Below, piece after piece: positions 3,393 through 43,321 of a stretch of DNA of 43,321 bases (positions are counted from its first letter, which is position 1; each line of letters begins with the position of its first letter). Origin of the DNA: Microcoleus sp. FACHB-DQ6 (GTDB lineage: Bacteria > Cyanobacteriota > Cyanobacteriia > Cyanobacteriales > Microcoleaceae); NCBI GenBank assembly GCA_014695175.1, contig JACJNV010000349.1, positions 1 through 43,321 of the forward strand. The letters are read 5' to 3'. A program made the translations under genes and the position numbers. The notes below the pieces were generated by a model. The model saw only the letters and a list, made by a program, of their open reading frames with translations, was not told the DNA's origin and made no database searches.

Positions 3393-3423
3393 TGTAGAGT
3401 ACGCAATGCGCCCGTTTAATTTT

Positions 3424-18191: not shown

Positions 18192-21100
18192 ATGCCCATT
18201 TATCGCTTCAACCGCCTAACCGCCAAATTTTTTAGCAAGCTGCCGCTGCGAACGGTTCTGATTGTGCCGTTTGTTTTGCAAACGGTAAGTGTAGTTGGGC
18301 TAGTGGGCTATCTTTCTTTCAAAAGTGGTCAGGAATCAGTCGAGGATGTAGCGCATCAGTTAATCGAACAAGTAGGAGAGCGGATTAGCGATCGCCTCAC
18401 CGATAATAATGGACTGTCGGCAATCAATACCTTTCTGGCTGGGCTGCAATTCTCGGCTTCAGGACAAACTTTTATTATGGATCGATCGGGCAATCTGATT
18501 GCCGCATCCACAGTAGAAACACCGTTGGTGACGCCAGCAAAAAAGCAACCGACGCCATTGCTAGCCACCAACAGCAATGATGCCCGAACGCGAGATATTG
18601 CTCGACAACTCGCCAACCGATTTGGCAACCTCCGCACGCTGCAAACAACCGAGAAATTGACCCTGGCGAGCAAGGGCGATAGGCAGTTTGTCCGCGTCAC
18701 TCCCTATCGAGATGTCCGTGGTTTGGATTGGTTAATTGTGGTGGTGGTGCCAGAGTCTGATTTGATGGCTCCGATTCAAGCAAATACGCGCAATACATTG
18801 TGGTTATTGGCCGGTACACTGCCGCTGGCGATCGCGATCGGATTGTTGACTTCCCGTTGGGTGACAAAGCCAATTATGCGCTTGAATACCGCTGCCAAAA
18901 ATGTTGCCAAAGGAGAATGGGATCGACCTTTAGAAATTAAACGCTTGGATGAAGTCGGAGAACTCGCCAATTCCTTCAATCTTATGGCAGCGCAACTGCA
19001 ACAGGCTTTTGCAGACCAAAAATCTTTAAATGAAGCTTTAGCGCACAGCGAGAGCCAACTCCAGCAATTTATCGAAGCCATACCCGCAGGAGTATCTATC
19101 CACGATGCCTCGGGTAAAGTCGTGTACTTTAACGAAACTGCCAAGCATTGGCTCGGTGTAGAAACTATCCCCGATGCGACCTTAGAAGAAGCAGTAGAAG
19201 TTTATCAAATGTACCGCCAAAACCAGCCGTATCCAATTGAAGAACTGCCTGCATTCCGAGCACTGCGCGGCGAAACGGTATTCCTTGAAGATATAGAACT
19301 TTATCGAGATGGGAAATTTATTCCTTTTGAGGTGCGCGCCACACCCATTTTCGACGAAGACGGAAACATTATTTATGCCATCATTGCTTTTTCTAACATC
19401 GCACAGCGCAAACAATATGAAAAAATATTAACTGACTACAATCGCACTTTAGAAGCCGAAGTTGCCGAACGTACCTGCGCCTTAGCTCGTGCTAGCGAAC
19501 TATTACAATATGAAATAGCCGATCGCAAATTGCTCGAACAAAAACTTTACACTTCTGCCGAGCAAGTTGTAAAAATATTTGCGTCGATAACCGATGTTGT
19601 CTTGATTTTTAACCAAACCGAAAAAAGCATTCAAATTATACCTACAAAGGGTATTTCTCAATACAACTATGAGACGAATCAGATCGACTCCATCATCGAA
19701 CAATTATTTCACGAGGAAAGGGAGGAGATTTATTTCGCTCAAGTTCAACAGGCATTGGAAACCCAACAAACTATTAGTTTCGATTACAGTCTGCGGATTA
19801 ATAACAAAGAAGTTTGGTTTGCTGCTAAAATTTCGCCGCTGTCCGATAGCTCCGCTGTTTGGGTAGCCCGCGACATTAGCGATCGCCAGTTTGCCGAATC
19901 TCGACTGCTGGAAGCCCAAAAAATTGCCCGTATTGGCAGTTGGGAACACGATATCGCCACAGCAACAACCACTTGGAGTGAAGAACTCTATCGCATTTAC
20001 GAGCTCGATCCTACTCAAAAACCGCTGCCAACCGAACAATTAATCGAGCGTTTTCATCCAGAAGATCGATCGCGCTATCTGACAATGGTGCGCGAGCAAG
20101 CTATGTCGGGACAAAGCTTTGAAATTGATTTGCGGCTGATGCGAAGAGATGGCTCGCTCAGTTACATTGAAGTCAGAGGGAAACCGGTTTATGATAAAAA
20201 AGGGCAGTTGATCCGTTTGTTCGGCACTGTTTTGGATATTAGCGATCGCAAACAAGCCGAGTCAGCTTTGCGAGAAAGCGCGCAGGGAGAACAAGCCATC
20301 GCCCGATCGATCGAGCGCATCCGTCAATCCTTAGATATTGACACAATATTCAAAACCACAACCTCTGAACTGCGACAAACCCTAAAATGCGATCGTGTCG
20401 GTATCTATCGCTTTAATCCTGATTGGAGCGGGGAATTTGTTGCCGAATCAATGGCTCCCGGCTGGATATCTCTGATCCAAGAAACCGACGATTGTAATGT
20501 GCCAAACACTCTCGTCGAACACTCTCGCTGTACCGTGAAAACTATGCAAGCCGGCGGTACACCAGTGCTGGATACCTATCTACAAAAAAATCAAGGCGGT
20601 ATGTACGCTAGAGGCGTTCCTTACCGCATAATTGAAGACATATACAGCGCTGAGTTGAGTCCTTGTTACCTAGAACTGTTAAAACAATTTCAAGCTAGAG
20701 CCTACGTTATTTTTCCCATATTTTGCGGCAGTCAACTTTGGGGTTTGCTCGCCAGCTATCAAAATTCTGGATCCCGCACTTGGCGCGAAGCTGAAATCAA
20801 TATTGGGCTGCAAATTAGCACTCAACTGGGAGTTGCCTTACAACAAGCTCAATTGCTCGAAGCGACTCAACAGCAAGCAGTACAGCTTCAACAAGCCGCG
20901 TGGGCCGCAGAAGCCGCCAACCTTGCCAAAAGCACTTTCCTGGCAAATATGAGCCACGAACTTCGCACCCCGCTAAACGCAATTCTGGGATTCTCGCAAT
21001 TGATGCAGCGTTCGACCAACCTCAATCGCGAACAACAGGAAAATATCCGCATTATCAACCGCAGCGGAGAACACTTGCTCGCTCTAATCAATCAAATATT

Positions 21101-22322
21101 AGATTTAGCGAAAATAGAGGCGGGACGCATGACAATCAACCCAACAGACTTTCAATTAAGGAGCCTGTTGAACGATTTGGAAGAGATGTTTCAACTCCAG
21201 GCAATGGAGCAACAATTGCAGTTAATATTTGACTGCTCTAGCGAAGTCCCCGAATACGTGCAAACCGATCAACTTAAGTTGCGCCAAGTCTTAATCAATC
21301 TCCTCTCTAACGCCATTAAGTTTACGAAAGAAGGAGAAATTAGGGTAAGAGTAAGTGCGGTTAGGGAGGGGGAAGCTCAGCAATTACCAATCAGTAATTA
21401 CCAATTACATTTTGAAATAGAAGACACTGGCTCCGGCATAGCTGCTGATGAGTTAGATAAACTTTTTCAAACCTTTGTGCAAACCAAAACAGGAACAAAA
21501 TCTCAGCAAGGAACAGGCTTGGGACTGGCTATCAGCCAACAGTTTGTCAACCTGATGGGCGGCCTGATTACTGTACGCAGTGAAGTAGGACGCGGCACCA
21601 CCTTCGCGTTTGATATTCCCGTCAGCGCCGTTGATGCCCCGGCGACTCAACCCGTAGAGCCACCGCGTCGGGTGATAGCGCTGGAAGGCAACCAGCCGCG
21701 CTATCGTATTTTGATTGTGGACGATCGATCGGACAACCGCCAACTGCTGATCAAACTCCTCGCTGCCTTTAACTTTGAACTCCAAGAAGCCACCAACGGC
21801 ATAGAAGCTATTGAAATGTGCTCGAGTTTTGAGCCACACTTAATTTTTATGGATATGTGGATGCCCCTGATGGATGGAGATGAAGCGACCAAACGCATTA
21901 AAGCCACCGTTAAAGGTCAAGCTACGGCAATTATTGCCGTGAGTGCCGGTAACGCCGAGGAAGCGCAAACCGTTACTGTATCAGATGATTGCGATGACTT
22001 TATCCACAAACCCTTTCGAGATACAGAAATTTTTGCCACCCTGCACAAACATCTGGGAGTGCGTTACATTTACGGTGAACCGGAGAGTGTGCCCGAGTCA
22101 ACTCAAATCGAGGCTCCAACTCCAGAGAGTCTGGCAGCTTTACCCGCAGATTGGCTGGCAGCTTTAGAGAAAGCCACAATTGAGTGCGATTTAGAGTTAA
22201 TTCTGATCCAAATTGAGCAAATTCGCGATCGCAATGACGCTTTAGCAAGCGCTCTAGCCGCATTGGCTAACGAGTTTCAGTTCAATCAAATACTAGCTCT
22301 CATCCATCCCGAACCAAAATAA
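18192..22322 (+). CDS. Hybrid histidine kinase: Cache-HAMP-3 PAS-CBCR-like GAF-HisKA-ATPase-REC (1376 aa)
   Basis: Two membrane helices (about 18-42 and 198-220) flank an extracytoplasmic Cache-like sensor containing SGQTFIMDRSGNLIAAS. A HAMP domain follows (about 217-275), then three PAS domains to about residue 690. A GAF domain (about 700-885) has the segment IEDIYSAELSPCYLELL: C825 sits where phytochrome-superfamily GAF domains attach bilin, but the following His is Tyr. The kinase core has H922 in MSHELRTPLN, N-box NLLSNAIKF and [10 protein letters not shown]. The receiver has D1221 in FMDMWMP. A helical tail (LPADWLAALEKATIECDLE...) of a type common after receivers in cyanobacterial hybrid kinases ends the protein. 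Residues near PISNYQL in the ATPase domain derive from a repeat. It probably works with the REC-kinase encoded 105 bases downstream. Confidence 0.92.
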   Translation: MPIYRFNRLTAKFFSKLPLRTVLIVPFVLQTVSVVGLVGYLSFKSGQESVEDVAHQLIEQVGERISDRLTDNNGLSAINTFLAGLQFSASGQTFIMDRSGNLIAASTVETPLVTPAKKQPTPLLATNSNDARTRDIARQLANRFGNLRTLQTTEKLTLASKGDRQFVRVTPYRDVRGLDWLIVVVVPESDLMAPIQANTRNTLWLLAGTLPLAIAIGLLTSRWVTKPIMRLNTAAKNVAKGEWDRPLEIKRLDEVGELANSFNLMAAQLQQAFADQKSLNEALAHSESQLQQFIEAIPAGVSIHDASGKVVYFNETAKHWLGVETIPDATLEEAVEVYQMYRQNQPYPIEELPAFRALRGETVFLEDIELYRDGKFIPFEVRATPIFDEDGNIIYAIIAFSNIAQRKQYEKILTDYNRTLEAEVAERTCALARASELLQYEIADRKLLEQKLYTSAEQVVKIFASITDVVLIFNQTEKSIQIIPTKGISQYNYETNQIDSIIEQLFHEEREEIYFAQVQQALETQQTISFDYSLRINNKEVWFAAKISPLSDSSAVWVARDISDRQFAESRLLEAQKIARIGSWEHDIATATTTWSEELYRIYELDPTQKPLPTEQLIERFHPEDRSRYLTMVREQAMSGQSFEIDLRLMRRDGSLSYIEVRGKPVYDKKGQLIRLFGTVLDISDRKQAESALRESAQGEQAIARSIERIRQSLDIDTIFKTTTSELRQTLKCDRVGIYRFNPDWSGEFVAESMAPGWISLIQETDDCNVPNTLVEHSRCTVKTMQAGGTPVLDTYLQKNQGGMYARGVPYRIIEDIYSAELSPCYLELLKQFQARAYVIFPIFCGSQLWGLLASYQNSGSRTWREAEINIGLQISTQLGVALQQAQLLEATQQQAVQLQQAAWAAEAANLAKSTFLANMSHELRTPLNAILGFSQLMQRSTNLNREQQENIRIINRSGEHLLALINQILDLAKIEAGRMTINPTDFQLRSLLNDLEEMFQLQAMEQQLQLIFDCSSEVPEYVQTDQLKLRQVLINLLSNAIKFTKEGEIRVRVSAVREGEAQQLPISNYQLHFEIEDTGSGIAADELDKLFQTFVQTKTGTKSQQGTGLGLAISQQFVNLMGGLITVRSEVGRGTTFAFDIPVSAVDAPATQPVEPPRRVIALEGNQPRYRILIVDDRSDNRQLLIKLLAAFNFELQEATNGIEAIEMCSSFEPHLIFMDMWMPLMDGDEATKRIKATVKGQATAIIAVSAGNAEEAQTVTVSDDCDDFIHKPFRDTEIFATLHKHLGVRYIYGEPESVPESTQIEAPTPESLAALPADWLAALEKATIECDLELILIQIEQIRDRNDALASALAALANEFQFNQILALIHPEPK

Positions 22323-22334
22323 TAAGGATATGAG

Positions 22335-22403
22335 ATAGGTTTGTAGTGAGTACGATCGCCCGAGGGGGTTTTATGAGGGCGATGGTACTCACTACAAACC
22401 TAT
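22335..22403. repeat. Long perfect hairpin between two kinase genes
   Basis: Arms 22335-22353 and 22385-22403 are 19-base perfect inverted copies (ATAGGTTTGTAGTGAGTAC), continued inward by GATCGCCC/GGGCGAT. It lies 12 bases after the hybrid-kinase stop and 25 bases before the next start. It would form a very stable RNA stem that could protect, attenuate or end the upstream transcript; there is no T-run. Confidence 0.8.
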
Positions 22404-22427
22404 AAAGGTTATTTTACGGAACTAAAT

Positions 22428-23750
22428 ATGAATTCCGAACCAACTCCCGCCTTAAAAGGGAATATTTTAATTGTTGATGATATTCCGGCTAATTTGCAAC
22501 TTTTAGCTCAAATACTCTCGCAGCAAGGGTACAAAACACGCACCGCACCCGACGGCAAACTAGCGCTGCGGTCGATCGAGTTAACTCCTCCTGACTTGAT
22601 TTTGCTCGACATCATGATGCCCGGTATGGACGGCTACAAAGTCTGCCAAGCATTGAAAGCTTCTCCCACAACCAAAGATATTCCAGTTATTTTTATCAGT
22701 GCTTTAAATGAAGTGTTTGATAAAGTCAAAGCCTTTGAAGTTGGTGGTATAGATTATATCACAAAACCGTTTCACGAACAAGAAGTTTTGGCCCGCGTCT
22801 CAAATCAACTCGTGCAGCGCCAGTTGTTCCAACAAACACAATCCTACGCCCAGCAACTCGAACAAACCGTAACTGAACTAAAGAAAACTCAAGCTCAGTT
22901 AATACAGAAGGAAAAAATGGCTTCTTTAGGTCAGCTAGCGGCAGGAATTGCTCACGAAATCAACAATCCCGTCAGCTTTATCTACGGTAATATTGCTCTA
23001 GCGGCGGAGTATGCGCGAGATTTGCTTCGCCTCGTTGAATTGTACCGACATTACTACCCCCACCCCGTTGCAGAAATTATCGGCGAATTGGATGAGATTC
23101 AACCCGAATTCATCGCAGAGGATTATCCAAAACTGCTGAATTCGATGACAGAGGGTGCTTCTCGGATTAGCGAGATTGTAATGTCTTTGCGGAAATTCAC
23201 CCGCCTTGGCGAACAAAAGTACAAGCCAGTGGATATTCATGAAGGCATTGACAATACTTTAGTTATTTTGCAGCACCGGTTGAAGGGAGCAAACAAAGCT
23301 GGCGAGATAGAGGTTATTAAACACTACAGCCAACTGCCAAGAGTCACCTGTTACGCCAGTGAGTTAAATCAGGTGTTCATGAACCTGCTAACTAATGCTA
23401 TTGATGCCCTGGAAACTCAACCGTCTCCCCGAAAAATTACCATCAGCACTTCAGTAAGTTCTGAGTCAGAATCGGCCCTGCACAATCAAGACTCCAAATT
23501 AGCCGCTCAAAACTATAAATCCGTTGTTATTCACATTGCCGATAACGGTTGTGGGATGAGTGAGGAAGTGCGCCACCAGATATTTGACCCATTTTTTACT
23601 ACGAAGCCTGTAGGTCGCGGTACTGGATTAGGGTTGGCAATCAGTCACGATATTGTAGTGGAAAAACATCGAGGTAAAATCAGTTGTATTTCTGATCCGG
23701 GCCGAGGAACAGAGTTAATTTTGCAGATTCCGATATGTGTTAAATCTTAA
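22428..23750 (+). CDS. REC-histidine kinase (440 aa)
   Basis: N-terminal receiver (about 12-130, phosphoacceptor D61 in [11 protein letters not shown], conserved Lys in ITKPF), a coiled-coil linker (about 137-163), then a HisKA-like domain with H176 in [18 protein letters not shown] and an ATPase domain ([27 protein letters not shown]). There is no DNA-binding output and no membrane segment, so it is a soluble relay kinase. Cyanobacteria often encode such REC-kinases directly after a hybrid kinase, and its receiver may accept phosphate from the upstream kinase (inferred from position). Confidence 0.92.
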
Positions 23751-27186: not shown

Positions 27187-28029
27187 TTAAGAATCATTAG
27201 TCGTGCCGTCCGGCATAATTGCCCGCCTCAAATCTGCATCGCGGAAGTTAGTTCGATTGAGATTAGCGTCAATCAAAACCGCTTCCAACAAAACAGCCCC
27301 GCTAAAATTAGACCAGCACAGCTTGGCACGGTACAAATTAGCACCGCTCAAATTAGCTTTTGCTAGCGTTGACCAACTCACATTAGCCACTCTCAAATTA
27401 GCATTGCTCAGATTAGCTTCGCTCAGATTAGCTCCAATCATCGTTACTTGGCGCAAGTCTGCACCAGTCAGGTTAGCCCCGCTGAGCATCGCCCCGCTAA
27501 GAATTGCCTGATTCAGATTAGCTCTTTCTAAAAGCGACTGGCTAAGAATGGCATTTGTCAGGTTTACCGCTTTGAGAGTTGACCAACTCAAATTTGCCTT
27601 CATCAAATTAATGCGAATCATGCTAGCGTCGGTTAAGTTGGCCGCAAACAAATTCGCTTCGGTAAAGTTGGCTTCGGTCAAATTAGCTTCGGTCAAATTA
27701 GCCTTGGTCATGTTGACTTCTCTGGCCATTGAGCCGCGCAGGTTGGCTCCCATCAGGTTAGCCCCGCTGAGATTGGCGCGGCTCAAATCGGTACCGATGA
27801 GATTTGCTTCGCTGAGGTTGGCTTCTGTCAAGTCCACCCCTGCCAATTTCACCTCGCGCAAGTTCGTTCCCGTCAGGTTAGCGCCTTTGAGGTTTGCGTC
27901 TTGGAAATTCGCTCTGGTAAAGTTAGCCTCGCTGAGGTTTACCCCTTTTAAGTCGGCCCCGACGAGGTTAATCTCTCGAAAATTTCTTTCTCCGGCCGCA
28001 TATTGCCTCAGAATTCGATCGGCCTCCAT
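27187..28029 (-). CDS. Pentapeptide-repeat protein (280 aa)
   Basis: After a 20-residue N-terminal cap (MEADRILRQYAAGERNFREI) almost the entire protein is A(N/D)LxX pentapeptides, about fifty copies (ANLSE, ANFTR, ANLKG, ADLRQ...). These fold into a right-handed quadrilateral beta helix. The central L/F and preceding A are well kept throughout. Such proteins are very numerous in filamentous cyanobacteria; most have no known function, though a few mimic DNA or bind gyrase. No signal peptide or membrane helix is seen. The low-complexity composition creates long antisense open frames that are not genes. Confidence 0.92.
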   Translation of the reverse strand: MEADRILRQYAAGERNFREINLVGADLKGVNLSEANFTRANFQDANLKGANLTGTNLREVKLAGVDLTEANLSEANLIGTDLSRANLSGANLMGANLRGSMAREVNMTKANLTEANLTEANFTEANLFAANLTDASMIRINLMKANLSWSTLKAVNLTNAILSQSLLERANLNQAILSGAMLSGANLTGADLRQVTMIGANLSEANLSNANLRVANVSWSTLAKANLSGANLYRAKLCWSNFSGAVLLEAVLIDANLNRTNFRDADLRRAIMPDGTTNDS

Positions 28030-28252
28030 GTCATTCGCCTCGCAATTTTTTTAAACGTTAGAGTGATGGGTGTTACCACATCATCCCAGATAACCACGGT
28101 ATTCACTCTGCACGCTGTAGTATCTGTAGAATCTTTGCATTGCTTTCCGGACACTCCTGTGCCACTGCCTCCTAAAAGGTCTGACAAATATCAAAGCTTC
28201 TGAGAAAATCAACAATAGGGTAAAACTCTCGGCGCTCGGCACTGAGTCAGTC

Positions 28253-28278
28253 GATTTTAGATTTTAGATTTTAGATTT
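28253..28278. repeat. Heptamer STRR (GATTTTA)n
   Basis: Three and a half units, same family as the arrays at 24594, 25105 and 30923. Confidence 0.92.
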
Positions 28279-28376
28279 GCTCCACAGATTCATCTGGGAG
28301 CCGGAACTTTGGTCTAAAATTATGGGCTCACCACGACGATTATCGGAAACTTGTATTCGTTTTTGGGCGAGCTGGC

Positions 28377-28431
28377 AGTTGACAACGGACAACGGTCAAC
28401 TGTCAACAGTCAACGGTCAACTGTCAACAGA
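28377..28431. repeat. Heptamer STRR (GTCAACN family) before ilvD
   Basis: Tandem and partly inverted heptamers of the GTCAACT/GTCAACA/GACAACG type, able to fold on themselves. Read in frame they give [13 protein letters not shown], which falsely lengthens the ilvD frame. Confidence 0.9.
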
Positions 28432-28447
28432 CAAAGGAAATTTTAAA

Positions 28448-30133
28448 ATGCCTGAAAATTTGAGAAGCCAAGCTGTGACTGGGGGCGTGCAGCGCGCGCC
28501 CAACCGAGCAATGCTGCGGGCAGTCGGTTTTGGTGACGGCGATTTCACTAAGCCGATTGTGGGGATTGCCAACGGGTACAGCACGATTACGCCCTGCAAT
28601 ATGGGATTGAACGAGCTCGCTTTGCGGGCCACTGCGGGTGCAAGGGAAGCTGGGGCGATGCCGCAGATGTTCGGTACGATTACTATCAGCGACGGGATCT
28701 CGATGGGAACTCAAGGGATGAAATATTCTCTGGTGTCGAGAGATGTAATTGCTGATTCCATCGAAACTGTTTGCAACGGCCAAAGTATGGACGGGGTGCT
28801 GGCTGTCGGCGGTTGCGATAAAAATATGCCGGGGGCGATGATTGCGATCGCCCGCATGAACATTCCTGCTATTTTTGTTTACGGCGGCACGATCAAACCG
28901 GGACACCACAACGGACAGGATTTAACCGTTGTCAGCGCTTTTGAAGCAGTCGGTCAATTCAGCGCGGGCAAAATTGACCAAACAGAACTCAATGCAGTGG
29001 AACAGAATGCTTGTCCGGGTGCGGGTTCTTGTGGCGGAATGTTCACAGCAAATACCATGTCGAGTGCTTTTGAAGCAATGGGCATGAGTTTGCCTTATTC
29101 TTCGACAATGGCTGCTGAGGATGCCGAAAAAGCTGACAGCGCTGCCGAATCTGCAAAAGTGGTGGTGGAAGCGATCCGCAAACAGTTGTTACCGAGCCAA
29201 ATTTTGACTCGCAAGGCCTTTGAAAATGCGATCGCGGTAATCATGGCAATCGGCGGTTCAACCAATGCTGTGCTGCATTTATTAGCCATTTCCAACGCGA
29301 TCGGCGTTGAGTTGTCCCTCGACGATTTTGAAACTATTCGAGCGAAAGTGCCCGTGCTGTGCGACCTCAAACCCAGCGGCAAATACGTAGCAACCGATTT
29401 GCACAATGCCGGCGGCATTCCCCAAGTAATGAAAATCCTGCTAGAACAGGGTTTGCTGCACGGAGACGCGCTGACTATTACCGGTCAAACTCTTGCGGAA
29501 GTGTTAGCAGATATTCCAGCCGAACCCCGCACCGACCAAGATGTCATCCGCCCTTGGAACAACCCGATTTACGCCCAAGGACATTTAGCAATTCTCAGGG
29601 GAAATCTGGCAACAGAAGGAGCCGTTGCTAAAATTACTGGCGTTAAAAAAGCGCAAATTACTGGCCCAGCGCGGGTATTTGAATCTGAAGAAAATTGTTT
29701 GGAGGCAATTTTAGCGGGCAAAATTCAAGCCGGAGATGTGATTGTCGTCCGCTACGAAGGGCCCAAAGGCGGGCCGGGAATGCGCGAAATGTTAGCACCA
29801 ACTTCGGCAATTATTGGCGCCGGTTTGGGGGATTCTGTAGGGTTAATTACTGACGGCCGCTTCTCTGGCGGAACTTACGGCATGGTTGTCGGGCACGTGG
29901 CACCCGAAGCGCAAGTTGGCGGGACAATTGCTTTGGTACAAGAGGGCGATTCAATTACGATTGATGCCCAAAATCGCTTGTTGCAGCTCAATGTTTCTGA
30001 TGCAGAATTGGAGCAGCGGCGGGCTCTTTGGCAGCCTCCTAAACCTCGCTATACTAAGGGCGTTTTAGCTAAGTACGCTAAGTTGGTTTCTTCTAGCAGT
30101 GTTGGTGCTGTGACTGATTTGGGTTTGGGTTAA
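28448..30133 (+). CDS. ilvD: Dihydroxy-acid dehydratase IlvD (561 aa)
   Basis: Catalyses dehydration of 2,3-dihydroxy-isovalerate and -methylvalerate in valine/isoleucine (and leucine/pantothenate) synthesis; an iron-sulfur enzyme. Signatures: [11 protein letters not shown] and [18 protein letters not shown] for the cluster-binding cysteines, and [15 protein letters not shown] plus [17 protein letters not shown] near the C-terminus. The start at 28448 ([22 protein letters not shown]) fits the known N-terminus and a normal length; the 57 extra in-frame codons upstream are repeat DNA. Complete and without visible lesions. Confidence 0.97.
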
Positions 30134-32980: not shown

Positions 32981-33108
32981 AGATGCTAACCTGTGAATAA
33001 TTCACGCACTGACAATTCAGTCTAACTTAACTCGCGGCTGAGTTGAGAGTACCGCATCGATAGTTAATTTGATAATTTTTGTAAATTAGGACGCTCTTAC
33101 CTGGCGTA

Positions 33109-33177
33109 AGAAACCCGGTTTCTCGTTTCTACTTTCGGAGCTTCCAGCAGGCACTGGTGTTAAAAAACCGGGTTTCT
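33109..33177. repeat. AGAAACCCGGTTTCT palindromic repeats
   Basis: Two near-palindromes in opposite orientation, 54 bases apart, that can pair with each other or within themselves. Confidence 0.75.
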
Positions 33178-33714
33178 GTTAATATAGCGCCCATATATTG
33201 AGTTGCCTCAGTAGAAACATTCTCTGTATTCACTTGTTTTTTTAACAGAGTTTGTTTTTTTCACCCCGACTTACTTAAACTCTATTTGATTGGTGACATC
33301 GTTTCAGATAATCGGTTGTCTTCCCTTTATTTTAATTTCCTAGTTTATCAACAATAATTATAAAAAATTATTATGCGGGTAGTTGTTGTATAATAAGGTT
33401 TAATCTAGCTCTCTCAAGCCTTCTAATTTTCAAGTAATTCGCTTAGAAAATCCCAAATTTTTTGTTGATTTCTTAATCCCACTACACGAGATATTGCTGG
33501 TAGTGTTTTACGCTTCATATCAGAAAAATCCCACATGAAAGCAATTAAACGCCTCACAAGTTCTCACTTCGGGGAATAGTGTTCTGTATGCTCTGTATAA
33601 TTCACCGTAATCGTCAATCGTCAACAAATTTTATCTTTACGCCGAGTTCTCCGAGCTTCAACATAGTCGTAAAGGGTTTACGGCACTTTCTTTTTTTATT
33701 ATTTTAGGAAAGTA

Positions 33715-34005: not shown

Positions 34006-37000
34006 ATGTTCATGCGTACTACGGCTCTCACTCCAATAGAACTCAGGACTGCGATCGTCCGGGAACCCTTGGTGGTTTCGCCCGATAGGACGGTGATGGA
34101 TGCGATCGCCCAAATGAGCGGCGTGCGATCGCTCTGCAACACCCCTAGAACGGCGGATGGTCAACTCGACGACCTCCACCTAGAGGCGCGATCGAGCTGC
34201 GTGTTGGTAGTGGAAAACGAGCAATTGGTCGGCGTACTGACCGAGCGAGACGTGGTGCGGCTGAGTGCCCAACAGCGTTCCTTGGAGAATGTGGCGCTCC
34301 GGGAGGTGATGGCACACCCCGTCGTCACCCTCCGCGAGTCCGCCTTCACCGATTTATTTTTTGCGATTAACCTGCTCCAGCAGCACCACATTCGCCATTT
34401 GCCAATCCTGGACGATCTCGATCGCCTAGTGGGCCTAGTGACTCACGAAAGTCTGCGCCAAACCTCTCGACCGATCGACCTGCTGCGGTTGCGTATGGTA
34501 GCAGAAGTGATGACCCGCGAAGTGATTTGTGCTGCGCCAGATTCTTCCCTACTGGCGATCGCCCAACTTATGGCAGAGCATCGCGTCAGTTCCGTGGTGA
34601 TTGTGCACCCAGGCGGAATCTCTACTGAATCGCTACAAATTCCAGTGGGGATTCTCACGGAGCGGGATATTGTGCAATTTCAGACATTGGGCTTGAACCT
34701 GGAAACCTGTCTAGCTCAGGCGGTAATGAGTACGCCGATTTTTGCCGTTAGATCCGACGATTCGCTCTGGACTGTACAGCAGATCATGAAGCAGCGATCG
34801 ATCCGTCGGTTGGCGGTGACAGGGGAGCTAGGGGAACTATTAGGCATCGTCACCCAGACCAGTTTGCTGCAAGCCCTCAACCCGCTGGAGCTATACAAGC
34901 TGGTCCAGAAGTGGGAAGAGAAGGTGGTGCGCCTAGAGGCGGAAAAGGTGGCGCTGCTGGCAAATCGCAACCTTGAGCTCGAACAGCAGGTGGAAGCTCG
35001 GACAGCCGCCCTCAAAGCAAAGGCCGATCGAGAGCAACTTCTCAATACCATTGCCGAGCAGATCCGCTCGTCCCTGAATTTGTCAGATATTCTGCATACT
35101 ACGGTGCACGAAATTCACTCGCTTCTGGGGTGCGATCGCGTCATCATTTACCAGTTTCGACCTGACTTTAGCGGCACTGTGATTGCGGAAGCGATTACCG
35201 ACACTGCGCGATCGGTGATCCATAGAGAAGCCCGCGATCCTTGCATGAGTCCAGAATGGCTTGAACCCTATCGCCAGGGCAGAATTCGCATCATCAACGA
35301 CATCTACGGCGAAGAAATGACCCAGTGCCATCAGGAAATGTTAGTGGGGTTTGATATTCGCGCCAAGCTGATGGTGCCGATCGTGATTGAGCAACAACTG
35401 CGCGGATTAATGATCGCCAGTTATCGAGCCACTGCACACTCTTGGACGACTGACGAGATCGAACTCCTGCGACAAGTTTGTCTACAGGTGGCGATCGCCC
35501 TTGGGCAATCCACGATCCAGCAAAAATTGCAGAATGAACTGGTAAAGCGACAGCGGATCGAAGCCACCCTGATCGAGAGCGAAGAACGCTACGCGGCCCT
35601 TGCCGCAGCCGCTCCGGTGGGGATTTTTCGCACCGATGCGGAGGGGCTATGCACCTATGTCAACGATCGCTACTTTCAGCTCAGCGGACTCAGACCAGGA
35701 GCCACTATCGCGCAGGGATGGCAACAAGGAGTGCACCCCGACGATCGCGATTGGGTCATTGCCCAATGGGAGCAATTCATCCAAGGTAACGACTCTTTTG
35801 AACTCGAATATCGCTTTCAACGTCCCGACGGTACGGTAACGTGGGTTTATGGGCAGGGCGTCGCGGAACTCGATGGCAACGGACATCTGAGCGGCTATAT
35901 AGGCACCATTACCGACATTAGCGATCGCAAACGAACAGAAGCCTTCCTGCAAGAAAGCGAAGAACGCTACGTCAGCCTAGTGGAAGCCGTACCAGTGGGG
36001 ATTTTCCGCGCTGATGCTGCGGGCAAGTGCATCTATGTTAACGATTGGTGGTGTCTGATCGGCGGACTCACCCCAACAACCGCCCTCGGGGAAGGATGGC
36101 AACAAGGGCTACACCCCGACGATCGCGATTGGGTCATCGCCGAATGGGAGCAATCTCTCCAAGAAAGTGGCTCTTTCCAACTCGAATATCGCTTTCAACA
36201 TCCCGACGGTGCTGTGGTTTGGGTATATGGGCAGTCCGTTCCCGAACTGGATGCAGACGGGCAAGTTGTCGGCTATGTAGGAACTACTACAGACATTAGC
36301 GATCGCAAACAAGCCGAACAAAAACTCCAGCACCTCAACCAACAGCTAGAAACCAAAGTCGCAGAACGCACCCAAGAGCTTTGGCAAGTCAACAGCCTGC
36401 AACGCGCTATCCTGGATGGTGCTGATTACTCCATCATCTCCACAGACCGAACTGGCATCATCCAGACGTTGAATGCCGCAGGCGAAAGGATGCTGGGTTA
36501 CAGTGCTCAAGAAATCATCGGCAAAGCCACCCCCGCACTCATTCACGATGCAAATGAGGTAATTGACCGGGCAGCATCACTATCTGCCGAACTAGGGCAA
36601 AATATTCCCCCCGGCTTTGAGGTTTTTGTTGCCAAAGCACGCCAAGGCTTGGTCAGCGAAGAAGAGTGGAGCTATATCCGCAAAGATGGTTCTCGATTTC
36701 CTGTGTCGCTATCCATCACCGCCCTCAAGGATGTCAATCAGCAAATTATCGGCTTTTTAGGCATCGCCAAAGATATTAGCGAGTGCAAACGTACACAAGT
36801 GCAACTACAGAAAGTATCAGATCGCCTCGCTTTGTCTCTCAAATCAGGGGCGATCGGCTGTTGGGACTTCGATATTGTACAGAACACCGTCATTTGGGAC
36901 GAGCGGATGTACGAACTGTACGGTGTCACAAAACAATCTGATTCCCATCTGCCTTACCACATTTGGGCAAACCGCCTACATCCCGAAGACCGCACTGCCA

Positions 37001-40000
37001 CCGAAACATTGCTTCAGCAAGCCGTCTTAGGACAGGCAGAATACGATACCGAGTTTCGAGTGTTGCATCCCGATGGCAGCCTCCACTTTATTAATGCCTA
37101 TGGTGTCGTCGTGCGAGATGCCCAAGGCAATCCCCAGAGCATGATTGGGGTCAATTTTGATATTAGCAGACGCAAACAGGCTGAACTCCAACGACAGCAG
37201 TTAATTCAAGAATTATCAGCCTTTAAACAAGCCTTGGATCAGTCTGCCATTGTGGTCATCACCGATCGCGAAGGGCTGATATCCTACGTCAACGATCGCT
37301 TCTGTTTAATCTCTGGCTACTCCCGCGATCGACTGATCGGACAAACCCATCGCATTGTCAACTCTGGCTATCATCCCCCTGCTTTTTTCCAAGACTTGTG
37401 GCGCACCATTAGCAGCAGTCAGATTTGGCGCGGTGAAATTTGCAATCGGGCAAAAAACGGTAGCCTGTACTGGGTTGCCACCACCATCGTCCCCTTTTTG
37501 GACGAACAAGGGCGACCTTTTCAGTATCTAGCCATTGGCTTCGACATTACCGATCGCAAGTTGGCCGAAACAACGCTTCAGCAGGAAAATACTTTCCGTC
37601 AAGAAATTGTAGAAAACATGGCAGAAGGGCTGTGCGTTTTCCATAAAGTTGAGGAGTTTCCCTTTGTCCGCTTCACAGTCTGGAATCAGCAAATGCAAGC
37701 GATTACGGGTTACACCTTAGAAGAAATTAACCGTCTGGGGTGGTATCAAAGCTTGTACCCGAATCAAGAAGATCGAGAACAGGCGATCGTCAACTGTAGA
37801 CAGATGCAGCCGATCGCCGTGGAAAGGGAAATCCAGCGTCAAGACGGACAGCGGCGCACTATCTCCATTTCCACCTCTGTCCTATCAGGTGATGATGGAC
37901 ATCTCTATTCGCTCGCCCTGATCCAAGACATTACCAATCGCCAACAGACAGAGCGAGAAAATCGCCTGTTGAAAGAACGCCTCGAATTTCTTCTGGCATC
38001 CAGTCCCGCGATGATCTATAGCTCTAAGCCCTATCCCGACTATGACTCAACCTTCATCAGCAAAAATATCGAAGCCATTTTGGGCTACAAGCCAAAAGAA
38101 GTTGTATCGACCCCCAGCTTCTGGACTCACCATCTTCACCCAGAAGATGCCCCTAGAGTTTTGGCAGATCTATCGGCTCTCTTTGAGTACGACACTCATC
38201 AGCATGAATATCGATTTTTGCATCGCGATGGTTACTACGTTTGGATACGGGATGCAATGCGCCTGGTGCGAGATGAACAAGGTCGCCCAACCGAGATTGT
38301 TGGCTATTTTGCCGATATTAGCGATGTCAAACAAACCGAAGAAACCCTAAAAATACAACTGGCGGCAATTGAGGCGGCGATCGACGGCATTGCGATTATC
38401 GAAGGAGATACCTACCTCTATTTGAATCAAGCCCATCTAGAATTGTTTGGCTACGAACACGCTGAAGAAATGTTCGGCAAATCTTGGAAACTTTTGTATT
38501 CCCAACAGGAGTTAGAGCGGTTTGAGCGGGAAGTCTTTCCGGTGCTGGGGCGCGCTCGCGCTTGGGAGGGAGAGGCGATCGGCACCCGCAAAGATGGCTC
38601 TACCTTTGCCGAAGGGCTGTCCCTCACCCTCACAGACGATGGATTATTGATTTGTGTATGTCGCGATATGAGCGATCGCAAACAGATCGAAGCCGAATTA
38701 GCAGAGAGTGAAGCTAAATTCCGGCGGCTGGTAGAAGGCGCTAATGATTTGATCTGGTCATGTGAACCCGATGGCATACTCACTTATGTGTCACCGCAAT
38801 TCAAGACCATGTTTGGCTGGGATGAGAGTGCATGGATTGGTAAGTCGTTTATATATCTGGTGCATCCAGACGATCGCTCTTTGGTGGTTACTGATTATCG
38901 GGAGAATATGAAACTTGGTAAAAAGTCAAGTGATTATGAGTTCCGACACCGCCACCGAGATGGCAATTATGTCTGGGTGAGAAGCAGCGCCACACCCGTT
39001 ATAAATGCTGAAGGGGAATTGATTAGCGTCCAGGGAATTTTATCGGATATCAGCGATCGCAAACAAGCTGAACTCGCCAGGGAAAGCAGTGAAATCCGAT
39101 TCCGCCGGGTGTTTGAGTCGAGTGTGAGCGGCCTGATGTTTGCCGATTTTCAGGGGAACATTATCGATGCCAACGATCGCTTCTTACAGATGGTTGGCTA
39201 CAGTAGGGAGGAACTAGAGGCGGGGCTAATTCATTGGGATGCCATGACCCCCCCCGAATATGCCCACGCTGATGTTGTAGTGATGGAGCGCCTGATGCAG
39301 GATGGCGCGGCCGATGAGACCTGGGAAAAGGAATACTACCGTAAGGATGGCAGCCGCATTGCTGTCCTGATCGGAGTCGCACTCCTCCCAGGCTCAGAGG
39401 ATCAAACTATTTGTGTATTAGTAGACATCACCGATCGCAAACAGGCCCAGAAGGCTTTGCAGGAATCTCAGCAGTTTCTGCAAACGGTACTCGATACCAT
39501 CCCGCTCGCCGTGTTTTGGAAGAATAGAGAGTCTGTTTTTTTAGGATGCAATCAGAAGTTTGCCAAAACTCTAAGCTTGCCATCTACGACCGAAATTATA
39601 GGTAAAACAGATTTAGATATTTGCCCGAAAAAAGTCGAGGCGAGCAGCTATTGTGCGATGGATCGGTGGTTAGTAGAAACGGGTGAATCTATATTAGGGC
39701 TCGAAGAAAGGCTAACCCTACCCAATGGTAAAGCACTATTTATCGAAACCCACAAGGCTCCCCTGCGAGACTGCTCAGATAATGTTATTGGTCTGGTAGG
39801 CACGTTTCAGGATATCACCGATCGCAAAGAAGCCGAAGTGAAAGTGCGACAACAAACAGACCAGGAACGTTTGCTGGGAGCGATTACTAAACGGATGCGA
39901 TCGTCTCTGCATCTCGACGAGATTCTCAATAGCACTGTTGAGGAAATCCATCAGGTCTTGCAACCAGACCGAACGCTGGTTTATCGAGTTTTTCCTGAAG

Positions 40001-42258
40001 GGACGGGGGCTGCCATTGCTGAATCTGTTTCGCCAAATAGGCTTAAGCTCCTAGATATCCTCTTCCCTGAAGAGGTTTTCCCCCAAGAGAACTACGAGCG
40101 CTATATCCAAGGAAGAGTTTATGCGCTCAACGATACCGAAGATGAAAACGAGTCAATCGTACCCTGCTTGGTTGAATTCCTCGCAGACATCGAGGTCAGA
40201 GCCAAACTCGTAGTTCCAATTATTCAGAATCAAACCCTCTGGGGGTTGCTGATTGTTCATCAATGCGATAGCCCGCGCCAGTGGGAAGACTGGGAAATCA
40301 ATTTACTTAAACAAATTGCTAACCAATTAGCGATCGCAATTCAGCAATCTTACCTCTACGAACAGGTACAATCAGAACTGGCTATCCGCAAGCAAACAGA
40401 AAACGCGATCGCTTTACAACTCCAACGGCAGCGAACTTTGGGAGCAATCGCCCAGGAAATTCGCGAATCGTTGGATATTAACCAAATTTTGGCGACTGTG
40501 ATACCACAAGTCAAAGAAATCTTGCAAGGCGATCGCATCATCGTGTTCCGGCTATTTGGGGATGGCAGAAGTCAAATTGTTGAAGAAGCTGTGTCTAGCG
40601 AGTTCCCCGCGCTCAAAGACCATCACTGGGAGGACGAACAGTGGTCGCAAGAAATCCTCAATCGGTACTGGCAGGGCAAGCCCCGCATCGTCCCCGATGT
40701 AATGACGGATATCTGGACTGATTGCTTGGTGGAATACGCAACCGTTGGTCAAGTCCAGTCCAAAATCGTTGCACCTATCTTGCAAGAAGTCCGAAGCAGC
40801 GAAAGCCATAGATGGGTTGCCCCTGGGCAAACCAAGAAGCTCTGGGGGGTTTTAGTCGTCCATGCCTGTCGAGAACAACGAGTATGGCAAGAGTCTGAAG
40901 CGCAACTCCTGCAACAAATTGCCAACCAGTTGGCGATCGCAATTCAACAAGCGAGCCTATTTAAGCAGTTGCAGCAAGAACTCACCGAACGACAACAAGC
41001 CCAGCAGCAACTCACCGAGCGCAACCAACAACTGGGAGCCTCTAACGAAGAACTGGCCCGTGCTACCCGTCTCAAAGACGAATTCCTTGCCAACATGAGC
41101 CACGAACTCCGCACTCCCCTTAACGCTATTCTGGGCATGAGCGAGGGGCTACAAGAGCAAGTCTTTGGCATTGTCAACGAACAACAAATCAAAGCTTTAC
41201 AAACCATCGAGCGCAGTGGCTCTCACTTGCTAGAGTTAATCAACGACATTTTGGATGTCGCCAAAATTGAATCGGGTCAAATGGAGCTGGATTGCACCCC
41301 AGTTTCTGTCAATCATCTCTGTCAATCCAGTCTGGCATTTATCAAACAGCAAGCCCTGCAAAAACGCATCCAGCTAGAGATTAAAGTGCCACTCAATCTG
41401 CCCGACTTATTGATTGATGAACGGCGGATGCGCCAAGTCTTGATCAACCTGCTCAATAACGCTGTCAAATTTACTCCTAATGGAGGACGCATCACGCTAG
41501 AAGTCAGCCGTCAACAGCGCCGGGCCGACCCAGATTCTGCCGATTCCCCACCCCATTTTTTGGTCAAAGAGACCCTGCGAATTGCCGTCATCGATACAGG
41601 TATTGGTATTGCCCCCAAACATATCAACAAACTGTTTCAGCCCTTTATCCAAATCGATGGCGCCCTGAATCGTCAATATACAGGCACTGGCTTGGGGCTT
41701 GCCCTGGTCAAACGCATCGTCGAACTCCACGGCGGGCAGGTGTTGCTAACTAGCGAGGTGGGTGTAGGAAGTTGCTTCGCGATCGACCTTCCCTGCACTG
41801 CTGGTGCGCCCTCCTCTCGTGACCTAGAATCCCAGACCGAACCCCGCATCGAACCCAGCCAGCCCGAACAGGAAGGCTCTCCCTTAATCTTGCTGGCAGA
41901 AGACAACGAAGCCAATATCAGTACGGTTTCGAGCTACCTGAGAGCTAAAGGCTATCGCATTCTCTTGGCTAAGAATGGAGAAGAGGCGATCGCCCTGGCC
42001 AAGTCTGAGAACCCCAATCTAATTCTGATGGACATTCAAATGCCTGGTATGGATGGTCTAGAAGCTATGCAGCAGATTCGCCTCGATCCTAGCTTAGTTG
42101 ATGTGCCGATCATTGCCCTAACTGCCTTAGCCATGACAGGCGATCGCGATCGTTGCCTTGCCGCCGGAGCCAATGATTACCTTACTAAACCCGTTAAGTT
42201 GAAGCAGTTAGCAGCCACCATTCAACAGCTTTTAGCTTCCCAGGAAGATAACTCATGA
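34006..42258 (+). CDS. Giant hybrid kinase: 4 CBS, CBCR-like GAF, 11 PAS, 2 GAF, HisKA, ATPase, REC (2750 aa)
   Basis: No membrane segment. Four CBS motifs (two Bateman pairs) fill residues about 12-300 and usually bind adenosine nucleotides. After a coiled coil comes GAF1 (about 345-510), with C413 in DPCM and C441-H442 in CHQEML, the layout of dual-cysteine cyanobacteriochromes. Eleven PAS domains follow (about 525-1945), most closing in DI(S/T)xRK; PAS1 and PAS2 are close duplicates. GAF2 and GAF3 (about 1950-2320) keep a cysteine at the chromophore site (C2054, C2240) but with Leu for His. The kinase core has H2366 in MSHELRTPLN, NLLNNAVKF and GTGLGLALV; the receiver has D2676 in LMDIQMPGMDG. 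The stop overlaps the next start (ATGA), so the two proteins are translationally coupled. The ATG at 34006 could be replaced by that at 34012; there is no clear ribosome binding site. It probably integrates light, energy state and small ligands; the signals are inferred. Confidence 0.93.
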   Translation: MFMRTTALTPIELRTAIVREPLVVSPDRTVMDAIAQMSGVRSLCNTPRTADGQLDDLHLEARSSCVLVVENEQLVGVLTERDVVRLSAQQRSLENVALREVMAHPVVTLRESAFTDLFFAINLLQQHHIRHLPILDDLDRLVGLVTHESLRQTSRPIDLLRLRMVAEVMTREVICAAPDSSLLAIAQLMAEHRVSSVVIVHPGGISTESLQIPVGILTERDIVQFQTLGLNLETCLAQAVMSTPIFAVRSDDSLWTVQQIMKQRSIRRLAVTGELGELLGIVTQTSLLQALNPLELYKLVQKWEEKVVRLEAEKVALLANRNLELEQQVEARTAALKAKADREQLLNTIAEQIRSSLNLSDILHTTVHEIHSLLGCDRVIIYQFRPDFSGTVIAEAITDTARSVIHREARDPCMSPEWLEPYRQGRIRIINDIYGEEMTQCHQEMLVGFDIRAKLMVPIVIEQQLRGLMIASYRATAHSWTTDEIELLRQVCLQVAIALGQSTIQQKLQNELVKRQRIEATLIESEERYAALAAAAPVGIFRTDAEGLCTYVNDRYFQLSGLRPGATIAQGWQQGVHPDDRDWVIAQWEQFIQGNDSFELEYRFQRPDGTVTWVYGQGVAELDGNGHLSGYIGTITDISDRKRTEAFLQESEERYVSLVEAVPVGIFRADAAGKCIYVNDWWCLIGGLTPTTALGEGWQQGLHPDDRDWVIAEWEQSLQESGSFQLEYRFQHPDGAVVWVYGQSVPELDADGQVVGYVGTTTDISDRKQAEQKLQHLNQQLETKVAERTQELWQVNSLQRAILDGADYSIISTDRTGIIQTLNAAGERMLGYSAQEIIGKATPALIHDANEVIDRAASLSAELGQNIPPGFEVFVAKARQGLVSEEEWSYIRKDGSRFPVSLSITALKDVNQQIIGFLGIAKDISECKRTQVQLQKVSDRLALSLKSGAIGCWDFDIVQNTVIWDERMYELYGVTKQSDSHLPYHIWANRLHPEDRTATETLLQQAVLGQAEYDTEFRVLHPDGSLHFINAYGVVVRDAQGNPQSMIGVNFDISRRKQAELQRQQLIQELSAFKQALDQSAIVVITDREGLISYVNDRFCLISGYSRDRLIGQTHRIVNSGYHPPAFFQDLWRTISSSQIWRGEICNRAKNGSLYWVATTIVPFLDEQGRPFQYLAIGFDITDRKLAETTLQQENTFRQEIVENMAEGLCVFHKVEEFPFVRFTVWNQQMQAITGYTLEEINRLGWYQSLYPNQEDREQAIVNCRQMQPIAVEREIQRQDGQRRTISISTSVLSGDDGHLYSLALIQDITNRQQTERENRLLKERLEFLLASSPAMIYSSKPYPDYDSTFISKNIEAILGYKPKEVVSTPSFWTHHLHPEDAPRVLADLSALFEYDTHQHEYRFLHRDGYYVWIRDAMRLVRDEQGRPTEIVGYFADISDVKQTEETLKIQLAAIEAAIDGIAIIEGDTYLYLNQAHLELFGYEHAEEMFGKSWKLLYSQQELERFEREVFPVLGRARAWEGEAIGTRKDGSTFAEGLSLTLTDDGLLICVCRDMSDRKQIEAELAESEAKFRRLVEGANDLIWSCEPDGILTYVSPQFKTMFGWDESAWIGKSFIYLVHPDDRSLVVTDYRENMKLGKKSSDYEFRHRHRDGNYVWVRSSATPVINAEGELISVQGILSDISDRKQAELARESSEIRFRRVFESSVSGLMFADFQGNIIDANDRFLQMVGYSREELEAGLIHWDAMTPPEYAHADVVVMERLMQDGAADETWEKEYYRKDGSRIAVLIGVALLPGSEDQTICVLVDITDRKQAQKALQESQQFLQTVLDTIPLAVFWKNRESVFLGCNQKFAKTLSLPSTTEIIGKTDLDICPKKVEASSYCAMDRWLVETGESILGLEERLTLPNGKALFIETHKAPLRDCSDNVIGLVGTFQDITDRKEAEVKVRQQTDQERLLGAITKRMRSSLHLDEILNSTVEEIHQVLQPDRTLVYRVFPEGTGAAIAESVSPNRLKLLDILFPEEVFPQENYERYIQGRVYALNDTEDENESIVPCLVEFLADIEVRAKLVVPIIQNQTLWGLLIVHQCDSPRQWEDWEINLLKQIANQLAIAIQQSYLYEQVQSELAIRKQTENAIALQLQRQRTLGAIAQEIRESLDINQILATVIPQVKEILQGDRIIVFRLFGDGRSQIVEEAVSSEFPALKDHHWEDEQWSQEILNRYWQGKPRIVPDVMTDIWTDCLVEYATVGQVQSKIVAPILQEVRSSESHRWVAPGQTKKLWGVLVVHACREQRVWQESEAQLLQQIANQLAIAIQQASLFKQLQQELTERQQAQQQLTERNQQLGASNEELARATRLKDEFLANMSHELRTPLNAILGMSEGLQEQVFGIVNEQQIKALQTIERSGSHLLELINDILDVAKIESGQMELDCTPVSVNHLCQSSLAFIKQQALQKRIQLEIKVPLNLPDLLIDERRMRQVLINLLNNAVKFTPNGGRITLEVSRQQRRADPDSADSPPHFLVKETLRIAVIDTGIGIAPKHINKLFQPFIQIDGALNRQYTGTGLGLALVKRIVELHGGQVLLTSEVGVGSCFAIDLPCTAGAPSSRDLESQTEPRIEPSQPEQEGSPLILLAEDNEANISTVSSYLRAKGYRILLAKNGEEAIALAKSENPNLILMDIQMPGMDGLEAMQQIRLDPSLVDVPIIALTALAMTGDRDRCLAAGANDYLTKPVKLKQLAATIQQLLASQEDNS

Positions 42259-43321
42259 ATGTACCATCTGTTTTGGTCATTGACGACGAACCTGATAATT
42301 TTGATGTGATTGAAACCCTCTTGAGTGAGCAAGACTATCAATTGCATTACGCTGCCAGCGGGCAAGAAGCGATCGATTGCTTAAACCTCTTTGAGCCAGA
42401 TGTGATTTTGCTGGATGTGATGATGCCAGGGATGGATGGCATTGAAGTTTGTCAACGCATTAAAGCTATGCCCAAATGGGAAGCTGTGCCGATCGTTATG
42501 GTGACCGCCCTGACAACCAAAACGGATCTCGCAAGATGTTTGACGGCTGGGGCGGATGACTTTATCAGCAAGCCCGTGAATCGCTTGGAATTAACCGCAA
42601 GGGTGCGATCGATGTTACACATCCACCGACAATATCAGCAATTAGTAACCTTCAATTCCCGATTAGAAGCAACGGTGCAACAGCGAACCGCCCAGTTGCA
42701 AACCATGATTTTTCAGGATGCGCTCACAACGCTACCCAGTCGGACTTTCTTACTTCAGAAGTTGGCTGAGGTTTTACAAGCTGGGGAATCCTCCTTTGCG
42801 GTGGTTTATCTAGACTGCGATCGGTTTAAACTGGTGAATGGTTCCTTTGGCTACGCTATTGGCAATCAATTGCTGATCGCCATCACAGAACGGTTACAGC
42901 ATCATCTGCGCCCCGGCGACGTGTTAGCGCGTATGGGTGAGGATGAGTTTTGCTTTTTGCTGCACCAAGTTGATGATGCGATCGCCCTTGAACCATTTAT
43001 CCAAGCTATTCTACGGGGCTTTGACAGATCGTTTGTGGTTGCCGATTGTGAACTCTTTATGACTGCTTGTATCGGCATTGCTCTAGGCAGTAGTGTTTAT
43101 CAACAACCGGAAGAAGCCTTGCAAGATGCTGATACGGCAATGTACAAAGCTAAACTTCGAGGTAAAGGCTGCTATCAAATCTTCGATCGCCAGATGTCTT
43201 GGGCAATGCTGAACCGCCTGACGCTGGAAAATGATTTGCAGCGAGCGCTGGAACATCAAGAGTTTGTCACCTACTACCAGCCGATTGTGAATCTTCAAAC
43301 CCAAAAGGTCGTTGGATTTGA
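42255..43321 (+). CDS. REC-GGDEF-(EAL) cyclic-di-GMP regulator, 3' truncated by window edge
   Basis: The frame begins at the ATG overlapping the giant kinase stop and stays open to the window end (355 codons). An N-terminal receiver has D54 in LLDVMMPGMDG and the Lys in ISKPV, then a coiled-coil linker. A GGDEF domain follows (DALTTLPSRTFLLQKL; signature GEDEF at 228-232, so the second Gly of GGDEF is Glu). An inhibitory-site RxxD motif (RPGD) sits five residues upstream of it. The visible end, YYQPIVNLQTQKVVGF, is the start of an EAL phosphodiesterase domain; the EAL residues lie just outside. Likely the output partner of the coupled kinase, changing c-di-GMP level after phosphorylation. Confidence 0.93.
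   Translation, partial: MNVPSVLVIDDEPDNFDVIETLLSEQDYQLHYAASGQEAIDCLNLFEPDVILLDVMMPGMDGIEVCQRIKAMPKWEAVPIVMVTALTTKTDLARCLTAGADDFISKPVNRLELTARVRSMLHIHRQYQQLVTFNSRLEATVQQRTAQLQTMIFQDALTTLPSRTFLLQKLAEVLQAGESSFAVVYLDCDRFKLVNGSFGYAIGNQLLIAITERLQHHLRPGDVLARMGEDEFCFLLHQVDDAIALEPFIQAILRGFDRSFVVADCELFMTACIGIALGSSVYQQPEEALQDADTAMYKAKLRGKGCYQIFDRQMSWAMLNRLTLENDLQRALEHQEFVTYYQPIVNLQTQKVVGF

Follow-up and report, generated by a model that had tools for sequence, protein, structure and literature searches.

A predicted light- and redox-sensing hybrid histidine kinase overlapping the gene of a putative c-di-GMP phosphodiesterase in Microcoleus

In Anabaena sp. PCC 7120 the hybrid histidine kinase CdgK and the response regulator CdgS have been described as a cotranscribed pair, with evidence for an H-D-H-D phosphorelay, for a change of cyclic diguanylate (c-di-GMP) through phosphorylation and for the binding of flavin mononucleotide by one CdgK PAS domain (PMC9927289). 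This is the nearest described system that we found to a pair of overlapping genes in Microcoleus sp. FACHB-DQ6 (GenBank assembly GCA_014695175.1, contig JACJNV010000349.1), which lies at the end of the 43,321-nucleotide stretch of DNA analysed here, hereafter the window; the window is a complete contig (C278 of 402). The first gene encodes a hybrid sensor histidine kinase of 2750 residues and the second begins a response regulator with receiver (REC), GGDEF and EAL domains. We put it at slightly better than even that the first is a soluble hybrid kinase with several inputs and the second, its partner, a c-di-GMP phosphodiesterase; CdgK-CdgS shows that pairs of this kind can function. A first-pass annotation made from the sequence alone had proposed that one operon integrates light colour, energy state and other ligands and passes the result by phosphotransfer to c-di-GMP, an interpretation that as a whole is partly supported by the analysis presented below.

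The architecture proposed for the kinase, a soluble hybrid protein with four CBS, three GAF and eleven PAS domains, was confirmed. Pfam recognised the CBS domains in four stretches, the three GAF domains, HisKA, HATPase_c and the receiver, and the NCBIfam model TIGR00229 identified eleven PAS S-boxes; the phospho-acceptor histidine, the ATPase domain and the receiver aspartate that define a hybrid histidine kinase are all present. No membrane helix is expected, since the top 19-residue hydropathy window scored only 1.48. The four-base overlap between the TGA of the kinase gene and the ATG of the regulator gene was likewise found, with ATGA common to both open reading frames (ORFs) at 42255-42258 and an AGGAAG motif 7 nucleotides 5' of the second ATG, and it suggests that kinase and regulator are co-expressed. 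When 150 of 203 candidates in the source genome were scored, at least 143 HisKA matches were obtained, at least 24 of them in frames of 1500 residues or more, and the window kinase sits in the longest frame among the matches listed; a 4-nucleotide overlap occurs in 14 of 78 collected kinase-regulator pairs. Because large HisKA frames are so numerous and the overlap recurs in this way, both the size of the kinase and its overlap with the next gene are ordinary for the group. The regulator has at least 153 matches in the source genome, among those listed mostly through the receiver.

The prediction that the GAF domains sense light gained support for GAF2 and GAF3, which are specific homologues of experimentally known sensors, but less clearly for GAF1, which lacks a conserved His and a conserved Phe. 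GAF3 aligned with the chain 6uv8 over 174 residues without a gap (E 2.7e-77, 261 bits); PDB entry 6UV8 is Anacy_2551g3, for which a far-red Pfr state at 728 nm is given (PMC11480761). The C2240-L2241 pair matches the aligned chain, and the Cys, the Leu and a downstream His are kept in all 18 related CBS-kinase rows; we are highly confident in the prediction that GAF3 is of the far-red type. For GAF2 the nearest solved chains were 8k9o (E 1.4e-49) and then RcaE, 7ckv (E 4.2e-47), and in an ungapped stretch C2054-L2055 coincides with the Cys-Leu of RcaE, E2023 with its Glu and K2067 with its Lys. We take Glu, Leu and Lys to be the protochromic triad of RcaE. The Leu adjoins the bilin Cys in both RcaE and CcaS (PMC9415938). 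By this alignment GAF2 is very probably of the green/red type. Among the GAF2-like rows of related CBS kinases the Cys is retained in 37 of 43, the Glu in 21, the Leu in 25 and the Lys in 24, the low values for the last three being due in part to the presence of DXCF and Cys-His GAFs in this set. Retention of these residues varies among related kinases, so that relatives are predicted to differ in colour class. GAF1 has the canonical Cys-His pair (C441-H442) and a candidate second cysteine (C413); of the 54 GAF1-like rows of related CBS kinases, 43 retain the canonical Cys and 40 the second. Whether GAF1 would be photoactive, possibly at shorter wavelengths, is in our judgement evenly balanced.

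Inputs other than light are also predicted. One PAS domain matched 3ewk (E 6.6e-52), Aer 8dik (E 5.7e-21) and NifL 2gj3 (E 1.7e-16), and the solved PAS domains of MmoS, Aer and NifL presumably all bind flavin adenine dinucleotide (FAD). A blue-light PAS of the light-oxygen-voltage (LOV) type was considered and set aside, as phototropin and other blue-light entries were only weaker matches to this FAD-type PAS, in a comparison that included neither a search for the LOV cysteine motif nor single searches with the other ten PAS domains. The CBS domains proposed for the kinase are present. Their motifs are intact at residue 76 (GVLTERD) and residue 215 (GILTERD) and degenerate at residue 143 (GLVTHES) and residue 280 (GIVTQTS), so that two of the four retain a T-x-x-D type motif.

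The second gene opens with REC, GGDEF and the start of an EAL domain, in keeping with the first-pass annotation, although only 30 EAL residues lie within the window. The annotation left open whether such a protein makes or degrades c-di-GMP. The GEDEF motif of the regulator falls outside the definition of an active cyclase motif, [G/A/S]G[D/E]E[F/Y] (PMC8835794), and the GEDEF-EAL protein CC3396 of Caulobacter is reported to have phosphodiesterase activity only (PMC4823724, PMC8835794), GTP activating the neighbouring EAL domain according to one of these two sources. Because it carries GEDEF as CC3396 does, the regulator probably degrades c-di-GMP. Homologues were collected by a phmmer search seeded with the window gene, with 74 loci kept, a sample that leans towards close relatives. 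Removal of duplicates and of proteins shorter than 480 residues, namely receiver-histidine kinase (REC-HK) genes and REC-GGDEF genes that were broken or cut by contig ends (among them L076, L077, L078, L081 and L146, the L numbers denoting loci), left 50 proteins, and removal of a further ten without EAL motifs left 40. The cyclase motif in these reads GEDEF in 22, GGDEF in 16, GIDEF in one and DGDDF in one. All seven EAL motifs searched for were found in 35, each of the other five missing one or two. The homologue P0003 at L117, which is 95-97% identical to the regulator over the shared parts, carries all seven and is an intact REC-GGDEF-EAL protein of 573 residues. From these comparisons we consider it likely that the regulator is mainly a phosphodiesterase, which is the better reading than a cyclase.

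A model for how the pair may operate follows from these assignments. GAF3 would bind phycocyanobilin and answer far-red light, GAF2 would respond to green and red and GAF1 possibly to shorter wavelengths, while one PAS domain would read redox state through FAD and the CBS pairs adenine nucleotides, each by homology. These inputs would set the autophosphorylation of H2366, from which the phosphoryl group would pass to D2676 in cis and, directly or by relay, to D54 in the receiver of the overlapping gene; we infer this transfer to D54 with reasonable but not strong confidence. Phosphorylation would then switch c-di-GMP hydrolysis by the EAL domain, with the GEDEF domain probably serving as a GTP-binding regulator and not as a cyclase. 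The outcome would be control of gliding or aggregation by light colour in a filamentous cyanobacterium, an effect on motility or aggregation that we rate as a toss-up. The coordinates of the features are collected in Table 1.

Table 1. Features of the kinase-regulator locus. Positions refer to the window, except for the last row, where they refer to the loci named.
Feature	Position	Strand	Basis
Hybrid sensor histidine kinase, 2750 residues	34006..42258	+	ORF list, Pfam, TIGR00229
Four CBS domains	34006..34905	+	Pfam PF00571, 4 stretches
GAF1, DXCF-like cyanobacteriochrome candidate (D411-P-C413-M, C441-H442)	34996..35535	+	Alignment to solved chains
Region holding eleven PAS S-boxes	35578..39855	+	TIGR00229, 11 stretches; limits are our own cut
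PAS of MmoS/Aer/NifL type	37207..37605	+	Sequence match
GAF2, RcaE-like, predicted green/red cyanobacteriochrome (E2023, C2054, L2055, K2067)	39856..40347	+	Sequence match
GAF3, predicted far-red cyanobacteriochrome type (C2240-L2241)	40411..40935	+	Sequence match to 6uv8
HisKA, phospho-acceptor H2366	41074..41277	+	Pfam, motif position
HATPase_c	41416..41796	+	Pfam
Kinase receiver domain, D2676	41887..42222	+	Pfam, motif position
AGGAAG motif and ATGA stop/start overlap	42242..42258	+	Sequence
REC-GGDEF-EAL response regulator, first 355 residues, cut by contig end	42255..43319	+	ORF list, Pfam
Regulator receiver domain, D54	42270..42608	+	Pfam, motif position
GGDEF domain, GEDEF motif (residues 228-232), RPGD I-site-like RxxD (residues 219-222)	42714..43166	+	Pfam, motif search
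EAL domain, first 30 residues	43230..43319	+	Pfam
Interposed hybrid kinase	L117 3047-5287; L119 4917-7448	-	

The adjacency of the two genes recurs among relatives but is not fixed. Directly upstream of the regulator homologue, 38 of the 40 loci have a gene that combines kinase and receiver domains, at least eight of these 38 being short REC-histidine kinases (377-413 residues) and not sensor kinases. The upstream neighbour is a CBS kinase in 17 of 40, and a CBS kinase lies within 6 kb in 26 of 40, the records of such linkage including Tychonema, Lyngbya, Phormidesmis, Nodosilinea, Pseudanabaena and Cyanobium. At L117 (Phorm 6) and L119 (Tychonema) the giant kinase is separated from REC-GGDEF-EAL by a second, shorter hybrid kinase, and at L042, L045 and L062 by a REC-HK gene. 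In two loci of the same family, L143 and L144, a CBS-GAF-PAS sensor of the kinase's N-terminal type is fused to GGDEF, the CBS region being 59% and 57% identical, respectively; the layout of these proteins, CBS-GAF(DXCF)-PAS-GAF-GGDEF in a single chain, presents them as candidate light-regulated diguanylate cyclases. Some loci are fragmented: the orthologue of the giant kinase at L115, a locus identical with L083, comes as two overlapping frames (917 and 1864 residues), possibly through a frameshift or an assembly error, and at L081 (Arthrospira sp. PCC 9108) short separate frames represent the kinase and the REC-GGDEF-EAL gene, as if the locus had decayed.

Several observations weigh against a dedicated pair of light-sensing kinase and phosphodiesterase. 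The four kinases that resemble the window kinase most, with 90-97% identity in the CBS region, are each followed by a gene for a 358-residue REC-HK, the L114 copy of which has HisKA and HATPase domains. No orthologue of the regulator was found in those four genomes at E 1e-100 (150 of 183-224 candidates scored per genome), the matches there covering only GGDEF-EAL parts at no more than 48% identity. When regions were fetched from the kinase side, a REC-GGDEF gene lay downstream in 7 of 40, two of them after other kinases; several regions of this set are truncated where the contig or the fetched segment stops. A tree of 79 kinases implies no fewer than 16 shifts of partner type. In view of the REC-HK neighbours, the 7 of 40 and these changes, the kinase is not tied to one type of regulator. 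It may accordingly be a real light sensor whose neighbouring regulator is not a dedicated partner but a lineage-specific neighbour, maybe serving other kinases, with the main output running through other regulators such as REC-HK. The genes interposed before REC-GGDEF-EAL in the loci named above also favour such an arrangement, which we regard as a genuine but lesser possibility in the face of the recurrence of the adjacency across genera and of the co-expression suggested by the ATGA overlap. Further points concern the proteins themselves. Most of the regulator's EAL domain lies beyond the contig end; its remainder did not turn up in the assembly: with 24 of 24 candidates scored, the missing tail of a close homologue matched at best a different protein, at 53% identity. 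No Hpt domain, of which CdgK-CdgS makes use, was found by Pfam in either kinase or regulator. The canonical GGDEF of 16 of the 40 homologues is the main caution on the phosphodiesterase assignment, and taken with the retained I-site-like RxxD and the report that phosphorylation makes the cyclase CdgS more active (PMC9927289) it could indicate that the regulator is bifunctional or cyclase-dominant and that signalling raises c-di-GMP. This is unlikely, as GEDEF lies outside the active motif, CC3396 with the same motif is a phosphodiesterase only (PMC4823724, PMC8835794) and the close homologue possesses all seven EAL motifs. The departures of GAF1 from its presumed class also count against the main reading: its second-Cys motif is D-P-C-M, with the Phe of DXCF replaced, and a Ser stands where the conserved His of DXCF cyanobacteriochromes is expected. 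That column holds His in four of five solved aligned chains (three of the four being one protein) and Asn in 6oap, and in related GAF1-like rows His occupies it in 10 of 54. This His is expected in the vicinity of ring D. The lost His, and the loss of the Cys from some related rows of both GAF1 and GAF2, would fit GAF domains that are non-photochemical remnants in a kinase sensing only redox and nucleotides, but GAF2 and GAF3 of the window retain all residues examined and closely resemble sensors with known spectra, and we consider this explanation very improbable.

The junction between the two genes is itself a mosaic. In 100-base steps the DNA identity of the window with L113 is 88-99% at 40900-42200, 78-89% at 42200-42500, then 62%, and about 37-47% past 42600, whereas identity with the L117 regulator is 94-100% from 42300 on. 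The second kinase of L117 also matches the window, at 84-97% over 41000-42300, for which reason the exact breakpoint is unsure; the C-terminal part of that kinase together with the regulator shows 93.9% DNA identity to the window. Such a shift from Microcoleus-type L113 to the Phorm 6-type L117 regulator at about 42200-42600, with the contig ending some 1.06 kb past the junction, is what an assembly chimera of the kinase of one strain and the regulator of another would produce. We think a chimera highly improbable, in that estimated contamination is 0.13%, kinase and REC-GGDEF-EAL occur in one locus in the same-genus L117, L119, L122 and L123, the frames are intact with a ribosome-binding-like motif, and the displaced sister-species REC-HK was not found elsewhere in the assembly at E 1e-80 (150 of 346 candidates scored). 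A swap of the output domain within one regulator gene was suggested by L113 DNA that can be aligned to 42581, inside the receiver, and was rejected. In a receiver tree (116 rows, 126 columns, poorly resolved) the window receiver falls within a 32-row group of only GGDEF-labelled proteins (SH-aLRT 80) and, with weak support, apart from the sister-species REC-HK receivers. Because of this grouping, and because L042, L045 and L062 keep both the REC-HK and the REC-GGDEF-EAL gene, we prefer gene replacement or differential loss to an output swap; loss from an ancestral cluster that carried both of these genes, or recombination at the junction, would explain the mosaic.

The fullest form of the proposal is that one soluble kinase with cyanobacteriochromes for three colours (DXCF short-wave, green/red protochromic and far-red) and with FAD-redox and adenylate sensors drives c-di-GMP hydrolysis by phosphotransfer, and that the sensor has been re-wired within the genus by exchange of the regulator, a phosphodiesterase here and a relay histidine kinase in the sister species. 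We offer this tentatively and think it rather doubtful in its entirety. If true, far-red cyanobacteriochromes would gain an identified output, and a single kinase acting ahead of c-di-GMP turnover would combine far-red, green/red and redox sensing, which could plausibly underlie movement in microbial mats that depends on light colour. The system would in addition be a case in which cyanobacteria re-wire a conserved sensor through a changed adjacent regulator.

Other features of the window are noted here. In the 1-kb gap 5' of the kinase, at 33100-33180, two similar palindrome-like short stretches, GAAACCCGGTTTCT and AAACCGGGTTTCT, were seen by eye. A HAMP/PAS/GAF hybrid kinase (1376 residues) is followed by a REC-histidine-kinase gene (440 residues) at 18192-23750, a layout also seen in the sister species at the locus of the present pair, and a further giant hybrid kinase of 1846 residues with nine PAS S-boxes occupies 11660-17200. 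Tandem dnaK-type and dnaJ-type chaperone genes and then a dynamin-like GTPase (3777-6212) extend over 26-6212. At 7651-11463 is a glycoside hydrolase family 2 protein of 1270 residues that scores far under the cut-offs for named beta-galactosidases, and at 27187-30133 an Alr5209-type pentapeptide-repeat protein on the minus strand adjoins an ilvD-type dihydroxy-acid dehydratase gene on the plus strand.

The first-pass annotation was aware of no described system built in just this way, and our literature search likewise found no such kinase-regulator pairing, a weak negative since coverage of subscription journals was mostly lacking; CdgK-CdgS is nevertheless a close precedent. Both systems place a large multi-PAS/GAF hybrid kinase directly upstream of a REC-GGDEF regulator. 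CdgK is described with a membrane/CHASE part, two receivers and an Hpt domain, the published passages on it mentioning neither CBS domains nor a bilin, and CdgS is described as a cyclase with a GGDEF domain (PMC9927289), whereas the window kinase is soluble, has CBS domains, three cyanobacteriochrome-type GAFs and one receiver and no Hpt that was found, and its regulator is of the GEDEF-EAL type. Control of c-di-GMP by cyanobacteriochromes, as predicted here, has been described for SesA, SesB and SesC of Thermosynechococcus, where it depends on light colour and acts on phototaxis and aggregation; these hold photosensory and c-di-GMP domains in the same proteins and need no step from kinase to regulator (PMC9090330, PMC5871770). 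CC3396 (PdeA) of Caulobacter shares the GEDEF-EAL layout and the cyclase-inactive motif, but the passages describing it mention no phospho-receiver (PMC4823724, PMC8835794), which the window regulator has. Anacy_2551g3 is a close ungapped homologue of GAF3 with the Cys-Leu kept, its structure being that of an isolated GAF, and the passages on it give no account of an output (PMC11480761). RcaE is homologous to GAF2 with the Cys, Leu, Glu and Lys positions kept, and signals to RcaF and RcaC in chromatic acclimation (PMC9415938), whereas GAF2 of the window is one module of many. The components of the Microcoleus locus are thus of known kinds, and their wiring is a proposal.

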